Source: Oleomonas cavernae (GTDB lineage: Bacteria > Pseudomonadota > Alphaproteobacteria > Zavarziniales > Zavarziniaceae). Taken from it: a stretch of 64,000 nt of DNA. Shown one piece after another: positions 8,401-15,583 of the stretch. Where the stretch lies: contig NZ_QYUK01000011.1 of assembly GCF_003590945.1 (NCBI RefSeq), positions 3,318,909-3,382,908 on the forward strand. The letters run 5' to 3'. The number at the start of each line of letters is the position of its first letter. Positions within the stretch are counted from its first letter, which is position 1. Under the pieces are notes generated by a model. That model was given only the letters and a program-made list of their open reading frames with translations, ran no database searches and was not told where the DNA came from. A program made the position numbers and the translations under genes.

Positions 8401-10466
<2,066 letters not shown>

Positions 10467-12976: not shown

Positions 12977-13159
12977 GTGAACGCGCAGTCCCAGGTCATC
13001 AGCCTCGACGAATACCGTGCCCGGCGCGCGGCCAAGCCGGCGGCGGCCGCCGCCGCCCGCCCGGCCCTCGAGGGCCAGTCGATGCCGGTCTTCTTCTGCT
13101 GGGTCCCGGTCTGGTTCTTCGTGCCGCTGTCCCAGGGCACGGTGGCGCCATCGTGGTGA
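12977..13159 (+). CDS. Conserved-type micro-protein with ISLDEYRARR motif
   Basis: A 60-residue protein from a GTG start (VNAQSQVISLDEYRARRAAK). An Ala-rich charged linker follows, then a short aromatic/hydrophobic tail (MPVFFCWVPVWFFVPL) that could lie in or on a membrane. Function unknown. Its stop overlaps the start of the XRE-cupin regulator (GTGA at 13156-13159), indicating translational coupling. That coupling and the orderly codon use support a real gene, although it is short. The start could be a few codons upstream. Confidence 0.6.
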   Translation: MNAQSQVISLDEYRARRAAKPAAAAAARPALEGQSMPVFFCWVPVWFFVPLSQGTVAPSW

Positions 13160-13800
13160 CCGCCCCGGATTCCAGGGCTGCGATGGCCCCGTCGGACGGC
13201 GACCCCGACGACGACGGCCAGGCCCAGGACGATGCCGCGGCCCTGATCGCCACCGTCGCCCGCAACCTCAAGCGCCTGCGCACCCGCCAGGGCCTGTCGC
13301 TGGAGAGGCTGGCCGCGCGTTCGGGCGTCAGCCGGTCGATGCTGGGCCAGGTCGAGCTGGGCCGTTCGGCCCCGACCATCAACATCCTGTGGAAAATCGC
13401 CCGGGCCCTGGGCGTGCCCTTCTCGGGCCTGACCACGGCGGTGGGCGAAGGCGGCACCGTGGTACTGCGCGCCGAACGCGCCAAGTCGTTGAGCTCGCGC
13501 GACGGCCGCTTTGTCTCCCGCGCCCTGTTCCCGTTCATGGGCGAGCGCAAGACCGAATTCTACGAATTGCGTCTGGCTTTCCAGGGCCATGAACTGGCCG
13601 ATGCCCATGCCCCGGGCACGGTGGAGAATCTGGTGGTGAGCCGCGGCCGGATCGAGATCGCGGTGGCCGACAAGCTGTTCGAGCTGAACCCGGGCGATTC
13701 CATCCGCTTCGAGGCGGACGTGCCCCATGCCTATCGCAATGTCGGGCGCGAGGACGCGGTCATGTACCTGGTCATGACCTATGTCGACGCCCAGGACTGA
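13156..13800 (+). CDS. XRE-family regulator with C-terminal cupin domain
   Basis: Transcription factor of 214 residues. An N-terminal acidic tail is followed by a helix-turn-helix at about 30-85 (ARNLKRLRTRQGLSLERLAA, SGVSRSMLGQVELGRSAPTI). The cupin sensor is at about 120-210 (TVENLVVSRGRIEIAVADKLF, NPGDSIRFEADVPHAYRN). Such HTH-cupin proteins often sense small metabolites, but the ligand here is unknown. The GTG start overlaps the micro-ORF stop; another GTG lies one codon earlier. The cupin half is closely similar to the orphan cupin at 15167, suggesting duplication. Confidence 0.88.
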   Translation: MTAPDSRAAMAPSDGDPDDDGQAQDDAAALIATVARNLKRLRTRQGLSLERLAARSGVSRSMLGQVELGRSAPTINILWKIARALGVPFSGLTTAVGEGGTVVLRAERAKSLSSRDGRFVSRALFPFMGERKTEFYELRLAFQGHELADAHAPGTVENLVVSRGRIEIAVADKLFELNPGDSIRFEADVPHAYRNVGREDAVMYLVMTYVDAQD

Positions 13801-13815
13801 CAGCTGACAAAGCAG

Positions 13816-13840
13816 AAGGCCGGGCGCATGGCCCGGCCTT
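13816..13840. terminator. Bidirectional hairpin between convergent genes
   Basis: Perfect 10-bp stem AAGGCCGGGC/GCCCGGCCTT with a GCATG loop, located between the regulator stop (13800) and the Met-rich gene stop (13864). The T-tract is short in both directions, so strength is uncertain. Confidence 0.6.
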
Positions 13841-13863: not shown

Positions 13864-14199
13864 TCACGCCATCTTGCACATCATCATCATGCCGCCGCAC
13901 ATCATCATGCAGGGCATGCCCATCTTCATCATGGCCATCATCTGCTCGCAGCAGGTCTTCATCATGTCCATCGACATGCCTTCGGCCGGGGTCATGGTGC
14001 AGACCATGCCGGTCGGGGTCATCTCGCAGGTCATGGTGCACATCATGCCGCCCATCATCGGCATCATCATGTTGCCCATCATGCCGTTCATCATCGGCAT
14101 CATGCCGCCCATCATGGGCATGCCCATCATCGGCATCATGTTGTTCATCATGGGCATCGGCATCATCTGGGGCATCTGCATCATCGGGGCGGTCATCAT
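13864..14199 (-). CDS. Methionine- and cysteine-rich protein (52 Met, 8 Cys in 111 residues)
   Basis: An extraordinary composition: about 47 % methionine. Residues 1-55 are mostly MM-P/G/N repeats (MMPMMGMPMMGGMMPMMNGMM). Residues 55-111 are more complex, with eight cysteines (CTMTCEMTPTGMVCTMTP, MKTCCEQMMAMM, PCMMMCGGMMMMC). I see no signal peptide. Thioether and thiol ligands suggest Cu(I) binding or a methionine-based oxidant sink, but this is inference. AGGA lies upstream of the double ATG start. Third codon positions on this strand are nearly all G or C, which supports it over the antisense Ile-rich reading. The upstream region 14200-14412 holds a TGCACTGCA palindrome-like site and little else. 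Confidence 0.75.
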   Translation of the reverse strand: MMTAPMMQMPQMMPMPMMNNMMPMMGMPMMGGMMPMMNGMMGNMMMPMMGGMMCTMTCEMTPTGMVCTMTPAEGMSMDMMKTCCEQMMAMMKMGMPCMMMCGGMMMMCKMA

Positions 14200-14412
14200 G
14201 GGGAGTGTCCTTCAGGTCCGTGGGCCGACCGTGTCGTCGGCGTCCCCGTCCTGATACGCCCCGACTGGTGCACTGCAAAACGCAAGCCCGCGCGCGCCGT
14301 CGCTTTCCTCCAAGCTGACGGAAGACCTGATGGCGGGAGCGGATGGATCATCCGCGATCTTGGAGAAGCCGGCCACTATCCTGGATGATCGGCCGGCCCA
14401 CCTCCCCCGCCC

Positions 14413-14865
14413 TCAAGCGGCCAGGCGGCTGTTCAGGTAGCTGGCGATGAAGTTCTTCACCTTGGGCGTGATGCTCAGGCCCTGAAGCTCGACCGCGGTG
14501 ATCGCCTCGGCGGCGGCAGTGCCGCTCGCCTCGGCCTCGACGATCAGGGCGAGCGTCGCGGCCCGCTGGCCCATGCCGCAATGGACATAGACCGGGCCGG
14601 GCAAGCTCGACACCCGCTCGCGGAAGGCGCTGACCGTGGCCGCGGACAGATCCTCGACCGCGATCGGCAGGTGGACATAGTCGAGGCCCAGGCTGGTCAC
14701 CAACTGCCCCTCGTCCGAGGGGTCGAAGGCGCGCGTCACCTCGCCGGCCTGGCGCAGGTTGACCACCGCCTTGAAGCCCTGGGCGGCGAGTTGGGCGAGA
14801 TCCACGGCATCGGGCTGTTCGCCGGCGGCGAAGCGGCCGATCCCTGCGGGCGGACGAATGGTCAT
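14413..14865 (-). CDS. DUF442-type protein tyrosine phosphatase-like protein
   Basis: A 150-residue protein of the beta-lactamase-hydrolase-like/DUF442 (TIGR01244) phosphatase group. Motifs are GFKAVVNLRQAGE, YVHLPIAVEDLS and the phosphatase loop VHCGMGQRA, matching C-x5-R. Members are found alone or fused to sulfur-handling domains; the substrate here is not evident. I chose the ATG at 14865 (MTIRPPAGIGRFAAG) because GGGAG lies eight bases upstream. The longer reading to 15042 adds a poorly coding extension across a promoter-like region. It lies upstream of the Met-rich gene on the same strand. Confidence 0.75.
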   Translation of the reverse strand: MTIRPPAGIGRFAAGEQPDAVDLAQLAAQGFKAVVNLRQAGEVTRAFDPSDEGQLVTSLGLDYVHLPIAVEDLSAATVSAFRERVSSLPGPVYVHCGMGQRAATLALIVEAEASGTAAAEAITAVELQGLSITPKVKNFIASYLNSRLAA

Positions 14866-15166
14866 GTCGGTCACTCCCTGTTGGAATCGTGGTGGATGCG
14901 GGGTCGGCATACGCCGATGGGGCGACAGGAGAACGGCGAACAGGCGACAGTTTTGTTTCAACACGGAACCTTTGGCGGCGATGCCGTCGTTGGCTCGGTG
15001 AAGGCGAAACGATCCGGGACAGCGCTCACCGATATACACCACAAATTCATGTGAAACATTTTGAACAACATTTATCTTACACTATTTCTGAATTTCTATG
15101 GTATGGATTTGTGTATTGGCTCGGCAGGCTGGGCTGGGGCTCACCCGAGGTCGAGAGGGTTTGGCG
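14866..15166. promoter_or_regulatory. Divergent intergenic region with AT-rich core
   Basis: This 301-base gap lies between the divergent phosphatase and cupin genes. Bases 15038-15120 are strongly AT-rich (CATGTGAAACATTTTGAACA, CACTATTTCTGAATTTC) and contain the inverted motif ATGTGAAACAT. They probably hold the cupin promoter. No gene is seen. Confidence 0.45.
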
Positions 15167-15583
15167 ATGATGACAGTGATCGACAACAAAACCGCGGCCG
15201 GCCGGGCGGGCGCTGCCACCGGCGGCGAGGCCTTCGGCGGCCTGGTCAGCGCCCTGCTCAAGCGCTTGCAGGCCCGCTCGGGGCCGTCGGCCGAAAGCCT
15301 GGCCGCGCTCTATCCCGCCGGGGATGGGGCCGAGATTTACGAGATCAGGCTGGAGCGGCAGGGCCGCGAATGGGCCAGGGCACACGCCGCCGGCATAACC
15401 ACCCGCCTGGTGGTGGATCGCGGCAGCATCGAGGTGACCGCGGGCGGCGAACGCTACCGCCTGGACGAAGGCGATGCCTTCACCCTGGCCGGCGACGTGG
15501 CGCACAGCTATCGCAACACCGGCCGGGGCGAGGCCGTGGCCTACTACGTCCTGGCCTACGGCAATCCGCCCAACCGGGCCTGA
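15167..15583 (+). CDS. Orphan cupin protein related to the XRE-cupin sensor domain
   Basis: A 138-residue single-cupin protein. The region from about residue 55 (EIYEIRLERQGREWARAHA) to the end (GDVAHSYRNTGRGEAVAYYVLAYG) aligns by eye with the C-terminal sensor of the regulator at 13156. The shared pattern is YE-RL, LVV-RG-IE, GD, DV-H-YRN-GR-AV. There is no helix-turn-helix; residues 1-50 are Ala/Gly-rich. It may be a ligand-binding partner or a decayed regulator copy. The ATG at 15167 was chosen; upstream codons read poorly. Acyl-CoA dehydrogenase genes follow on the same strand after 115 bases. Confidence 0.75.
   Translation: MMTVIDNKTAAGRAGAATGGEAFGGLVSALLKRLQARSGPSAESLAALYPAGDGAEIYEIRLERQGREWARAHAAGITTRLVVDRGSIEVTAGGERYRLDEGDAFTLAGDVAHSYRNTGRGEAVAYYVLAYGNPPNRA

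Follow-up and report, generated by a model that had tools for sequence, protein, structure and literature searches.

The methionine-rich protein encoded at 13864..14199 on the minus strand of the window, a 64,000-nucleotide stretch of the Oleomonas cavernae genome, represents a real, conserved and undescribed protein family that lies within a three-gene module. The other two members of the module are a SutR-like XRE-cupin transcription regulator and a small open reading frame (ORF) that overlaps the regulator start. We propose that the Met-rich protein may be a sulfur reserve or a soft-metal binder, switched by sulfur supply. Its gene is defined by the ORF and its homologues. The protein has 111 residues, with 52 Met (46.8%) and 8 Cys, and a mass of 12.4 kDa, about 15% of which is sulfur. 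Among the 348 ORFs of at least 60 residues in the window, the runner-up in Met fraction, at 13.5%, is the antisense shadow of this same ORF, and the gene is present in one copy in its own genome.

A recount in the ORF agrees with the initial annotation as to this composition and as to its description of an MM-repeat N-terminal half and a Cys-patterned C-terminal half. Residues 1–53 (14041..14199, minus strand) form an MM/MP repeat that lacks Cys and varies in length among homologues. Residues 54–111 (13867..14040, minus strand) form a conserved Cys/Met domain, present here in a single copy, that contains all 8 Cys. In a second Met-rich copy from Sorangium (L146, 4851-5399, minus strand) the motif MMPQMMG recurs in tandem, which suggests repeat expansion as the way in which the N-terminal half lengthens. 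The AlphaFold2 model of the Cys/Met domain is weak (mean pLDDT 55), with elements in the order β-β-α-β-β (hairpin–helix–hairpin), and from it the alternating Met and Cys residues would be predicted to face the interior of a small fold. In line with the initial annotation, no signal peptide is obvious when the sequence is inspected by eye, and the protein is probably cytosolic.

Homologues are found in Zavarzinia aquatilis and other Alphaproteobacteria, in Myxococcota, in Pseudoxanthomonas and in many Pseudomonas. Scanning GTDB genomes for the C-terminal domain yielded 79 loci, 70 of which are mostly from Pseudomonas, and the others are from Phyllobacterium, Pseudoxanthomonas, Sorangium, Archangium, Labilithrix and further Alphaproteobacteria. 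A profile built from 34 domains added members in two other alphaproteobacterial genomes as well as the second Sorangium copy, and when 198 genomes were sampled from the family to which Pseudomonas belongs, 27 of them contained members. The domain is duplicated in Pseudoxanthomonas and in most of the Pseudomonas copies. Within the genus the distribution is patchy, at two of six genomes: the gene is absent from two complete genomes (G001 and G002), and the orthologue in G004, the same locus as that of Z. aquatilis HR-AS (L095), is 82% identical over aligned columns and retains 8/8 Cys. A tblastn search of plasmids gave no match to the protein. The weak matches from the first class-wide profile search were mostly chance stretches within long ORFs of other proteins (L017, L021 and L026) and were discarded.

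The family has no match among Pfam, NCBIfam, PHROGs or PDB families; GATase_3, GuaA and CobB (Pfam/NCBIfam) came up only as sub-threshold matches on composition and were likewise set aside. The initial annotation had suggested a profile-database search with the C-terminal domain, and this search returned no known family, yet homologues with a conserved Cys/Met pattern exist. The family is also nowhere described in the literature searched, which lay mostly outside subscription journals.

All 79 homologues share the sulfur-rich composition, with Met contents of 36–47%, the window protein having the top value. The domain consensus is MCxMTCEMTxDGMxCxMxPxxGMxMxMxKxCCxxMxxMMxxGMPMMMxCGGMxMMC. In the alignment of 34 domains, the Cys at columns 14, 23, 58 and 66 are retained in 33, the remaining Cys being variable, and Met occupies 721 of the 918 cells in Met-majority columns. 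Pro, Gly and Lys residues are also conserved. The dN/dS ratio is about 0.19 in Pseudomonas (median of 149 pairs), 0.016 for a Phyllobacterium pair and 0.44 for the Zavarzinia pair, which offers few synonymous sites. These sequence comparisons show purifying selection on the C-terminal Cys/Met domain.

Signals consistent with expression precede the gene. A plausible ribosome site lies in CTGAAGGACACTCCCC-ATG, upstream of the ORF, and a conserved element, GGAGGAAA (14304..14311, minus strand), stands 112 bp ahead of the start codon. GGAGNAAA is present in 8/8 single-domain loci compared, from Alphaproteobacteria and Myxococcota, in an alignment that uses a start revised by eye for L031. It is positioned ~100–113 bp before the likely start and 32–34 bp before a TTGC-like −35 element, with the −10 element at 16–17 bp. 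In the window, reading the alignment by eye gives the promoter-like pair TTGCAG - 16 bp - TATCAG (14251..14278, minus strand), whose spacing is conserved and whose match to consensus is weak; a generic promoter scan missed it. The Pseudomonas loci have another conserved promoter, with TAGAAT. We rejected GGAGNAAA as an operator for the regulator, as it is found only at the Met-rich promoter, bar one antisense copy (L061) and one distant copy (L031). No operator common to the promoters of the regulator and of the Met-rich gene turned up. An Rfam search of six loci gave no riboswitch and two weak matches below gathering scores. Because orthologues occur in two phyla, dN/dS is low and the promoter-like elements are conserved upstream, the ORF is more than a chance reading frame, and the earlier view of it as a real gene holds. 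Between the convergent genes lies a G+C-rich 10-bp hairpin (13816..13840), a possible shared terminator with a weak T-tract.

The convergent partner of the Met-rich gene is the regulator (13156..13800, plus strand; GTG start at 13156, alternative ATG at 13183). When all neighbours were compared by BLAST, the XRE-cupin regulator was the sole gene in common. Our set comprises 83 loci, namely the window, the 79 from GTDB and three found later, of which L056 and L075 are cut by a contig end, leaving 81 to be counted. The regulator adjoins the Met-rich gene in 78 of these 81 loci (the exceptions are L070, L074 and L102), across Alphaproteobacteria, Gammaproteobacteria and Myxococcota. The initial annotation had identified this XRE-cupin neighbour correctly and had underrated its importance. 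The genes are convergent in 76 loci and divergent in Pseudoxanthomonas, and L085 is counted for presence of the regulator only. The median gap between the two genes is 93 bp in the first 73 convergent loci, and a few loci have one gene or an insertion in between, such as an OsmC-like gene in Z. aquatilis. The three late loci provide an independent check of the linkage because they were found via the Met-rich profile alone. A non-functional, low-complexity ORF produced by repeat expansion would account for the low-complexity N-terminal half and for the patchy distribution within the genus. It is already contradicted by the conservation of the domain across two phyla at dN/dS well below 1, by the conserved promoter-like element and by the regulator linkage, and we give this explanation practically no credence.

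The regulator consists of HTH_3 and Cupin_2 domains, both above the Pfam cut-offs. Its top PDB match is 1Y9Q from Vibrio cholerae, over the whole length (E=3e-24), and it shares 34% identity with Escherichia coli SutR over 176 residues. In the tree, SutR and 1Y9Q form a sister pair with moderate support (97/58) beside the regulator clade, with PuuR far outside, on branches that are long. D-methionine has been reported in the cupin pocket of 1Y9Q (PMC7901475), and SutR has been described as a regulator of sulfur utilization (cited in PMC8464067 and PMC11332829).

The third gene of the module, overlooked in the initial annotation, is a small ORF of 60 residues, VNAQSQVISLDEYRARRAAKPAAAAAARPALEGQSMPVFFCWVPVWFFVPLSQGTVAPSW (12977..13159, plus strand), whose stop overlaps the regulator start (GTGA). 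The corresponding overlap in Pseudomonas is ATGA, and this stop/start arrangement suggests translational coupling of the small ORF and the regulator. The small ORF carries hI(D/S)LxxYRxxR and WVPVW motifs; hIDLxxYRxxR and the aromatic WVPVW tail are common to the small ORFs outside Pseudomonas, and those of Pseudomonas combine the first motif with LWxMYA. It is present upstream of 77 of the 78 regulators paired with a Met-rich gene and, among 15 related regulators that lack such a gene, of no more than one (a weak match), a contrast that is somewhat optimistic because the motif search was built from the positive loci. The small ORF is unique within its own genome. G002, from the same genus, retains the regulator at 78% identity, with neither the small ORF nor the Met-rich gene beside it.

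This near-obligatory pairing, and the joint absence in G002, would fit a model in which the Met-rich protein modulates the regulator or signals how much sulfur is available, with either its Met-heavy translation or the protein itself feeding back on the regulator and small ORF. The Met-rich gene is convergent, however, and so is no leader placed upstream of its target, and a leader-peptide or attenuator reading of the gene was rejected because its neighbour is convergent. Moreover, related regulators function without a Met-rich gene, and a translation sensor needs no conserved, folded-looking domain. We consider such feedback improbable.

The remaining neighbours named in the initial annotation were borne out, as was its suggestion of a small uncharacterised module, which the conserved linkage supports. 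Upstream of the Met-rich gene is a protein with a BLH_phosphatase (DUF442) domain (14413..14868, minus strand), whose closest NCBIfam model, below cut-off, is part of the sulfur transferase/dioxygenase Blh. Beyond it is an orphan cupin (15098..15583, plus strand) paralogous to the cupin domain of the regulator (46% over 87 residues). It resembles a copy of the regulator minus most of the HTH, with an apparent remnant in LKRLQARSGPSAESLAA, and the Met-rich gene thus lies between two regulator-derived genes. Elsewhere in the window (8401-10466, plus strand), a single frame joins a BetI-like TetR domain to a BetB-like aldehyde dehydrogenase; the BetB frame is broken near 10,035–10,050 and resumes in another frame, consistent with a frameshift, an assembly error or a broken gene.

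The wider gene surroundings point to sulfur acquisition and methionine metabolism. Where a related regulator has no Met-rich gene at its side, the genes next to it include MetN, SsuD-like monooxygenases, a taurine/sulfonate-type ABC ATPase and a sulfatase. Among the Met-rich loci, L096 contains MetNIQ together with cystathionine beta-synthase and gamma-synthase, L148 contains SsuA, mercaptopyruvate sulfurtransferase and an FMN monooxygenase, and L147 has a cystine-type binding protein. SfnB is assigned above cut-off to two genes in Z. aquatilis and to one in Pseudomonas (L082). Firmly assigned MetQ, MetI, SsuA or SsuD genes lie within 6 kb in 14 of the 70 Pseudomonas loci (34 with looser matching), against the ~3% of random 12-kb stretches expected from ~17 such genes per ~7 Mb (mean of six genomes); these loci are not phylogenetically independent, and shared ancestry inflates the counts, although the arrangements differ between loci. 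An ABC binding protein of the L083 type, considered as SsuA-like, has no NCBIfam match and was left out of the conservative count. The Sorangium, Archangium and Labilithrix loci have no recognised sulfur gene close by. Two further associations within Pseudomonas are a gene for a small molybdenum-pterin binding (Mop) protein, at most 6 kb from the Met-rich gene in 12 loci (L053, L047, L042 and nine others), and a TonB-dependent receptor gene downstream of the regulator in one group (L052, L054, L058, L072, L088, L093, L098, L099, L101 and L104), whose closest named model is PqqU, far below cut-off.

The initial annotation had suggested, as one of two roles, storage of Cu(I) or other soft metals, and it had noted the lack of a copper gene nearby. 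The latter agrees with our result, as no copper-protein motif occurs within the window. Storage itself is not established: the partner gene is a SutR-like XRE-cupin, and the informative surroundings concern sulfur. The metal-based reading is nonetheless the main and a serious rival to a reserve or sink, and the two are not exclusive. The protein would then be a cytosolic, metallothionein-like binder of Cu(I), Ag(I) or Hg(II), with a thiolate/thioether cluster in the Cys domain and the MM repeats as low-affinity sites, and the sulfur-type regulator would permit its synthesis when enough sulfur is available. The eight Cys and 52 Met, the strong constraint and the duplication of the domain favor such binding, and Cu(I) is bound by Met/Cys-rich segments of known proteins (PMC11840665). 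A motif search of 80 loci, however, recognised neither multicopper oxidases nor HMA or MerR-type copper genes, and picked up only two P-type ATPases, of unassigned type. The regulator lies outside the metal-sensor families, the Cys spacing varies between domain copies, and no Pfam, NCBIfam or PDB metal-binding family matches. As 33 of the 34 domains retain the same four Cys, we regard soft-metal binding as possible, if rather doubtful.

A second earlier suggestion, that the protein is a methionine antioxidant sink, fares less well. In this reading the protein would take up hypochlorite or other oxidants and be restored by methionine sulfoxide reductases. The idea would suit the Met-rich composition, and Msr genes do occur near 3 of the ~83 loci (MsrB at L147, and MsrA-like motifs at L085 and L094). 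Such genes are missing from almost all other loci, however, the partner is no oxidative-stress regulator, and no ECF-sigma context was noticed. We therefore hold an antioxidant role to be very improbable.

A Met/Cys reserve or sink in a module controlled by sulfur status is the explanation we prefer, held with somewhat less than even confidence. The small ORF, the translationally coupled SutR-like regulator and the convergent Met-rich gene as output would form a sulfur-nutrition module, in which the cupin domain may sense methionine or a related sulfur metabolite. The XRE-cupins studied in Pseudomonas aeruginosa act as local repressors that silence adjacent genes until they bind a ligand (PMC7901475). 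Should methionine or a similar compound be what the present regulator binds, the Met-rich gene would open when sulfur amino acids are plentiful, the regulator keeping it off until then. Cells short of sulfur avoid proteins rich in Met and Cys (PMC8557817), and a protein with 47% Met therefore makes most sense under sulfur sufficiency. Given opening at sulfur plenty together with this sulfur-sparing rule, a reserve or sink is the simplest role. The protein, in which a small domain with a predicted Met/Cys interior carries an MM-repeat tail that can expand, would be made in the cytosol as sulfur amino acids become abundant and degraded once sulfur runs short.

Several observations count against this explanation. 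The constraint on the domain, with its four nearly invariant Cys and its Pro, Gly and Lys, exceeds what a pure store needs. In addition, SsuD and SfnB normally serve cells starved of sulfur, in which a Met-rich protein would be costly. The failure to find an operator common to the two promoters, the lack of recognised sulfur genes near the Sorangium, Archangium and Labilithrix loci, and the shared ancestry of the Pseudomonas loci weigh on the same side. More speculatively, the protein could be a genetically encoded reserve of sulfur amino acids, the first in bacteria, its synthesis licensed by a methionine-sensing XRE-cupin with a coupled aromatic small protein, in a three-gene unit transferable among Pseudomonadota and Myxococcota; we think this stronger version rather unlikely.

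The Met-rich family itself resembles nothing known, whereas the class of its regulator and its candidate roles, store and metal binder, are already known elsewhere. The local repressors ErfA, PsdR and PauR of Pseudomonas (PMC7901475), as well as E. coli SutR, share the HTH_3 and Cupin_2 architecture and the arrangement of a single gene controlling its neighbours, and the regulator described here aligns over its full length with SutR and with 1Y9Q. Published XRE-cupin targets are mostly enzymes and transporters, whereas a gene for a Met-rich protein is what stands regularly beside the present regulator, to which a small ORF is coupled.

Like the Met-rich protein, the metallothioneins of bacteria (SmtA/BmtA) and the Csp copper storage proteins are small, sulfur-rich and probably cytosolic. 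The Met-rich protein differs from them in that it matches no profile (Pfam, NCBIfam or a PDB profile search), contains more than six times as much Met as Cys, and has no metal-sensor regulator. Extreme Met content is also found in MrpX, a hypochlorite sink. MrpX is a periplasmic methionine-rich peptide under ECF sigma control that is accompanied by Msr enzymes, whereas the Met-rich protein has no visible signal peptide, contains Cys and is paired with a SutR-like regulator; neither an export signal nor an Msr/ECF-sigma context of the MrpX type was found for it.

The sulfur-rich seed storage proteins of plants, the 2S albumins and delta-zeins, resemble the proposed Met/Cys reserve in answering to sulfur supply, a likeness of role with no suggestion of homology. 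Unlike the Met-rich protein, these plant proteins are secretory and disulfide-bonded. We know of no bacterial counterpart to them, and the literature searched contained none. For carbon, nitrogen, phosphate and iron, cells have storage polymers or proteins of their own; to our knowledge, a protein store of methionine and cysteine has not been established for bacteria. The compact three-gene unit, found in many Pseudomonas species that are easy to handle in the laboratory, is undescribed in the databases and literature searched. Because the family is so rich in Met in every member and is tied to a SutR-like regulator, the idea of a protein store can be tested by simple knock-outs, and if the protein instead binds soft metals, it would represent a metallothionein of a new type, dominated by Met and controlled by sulfur.
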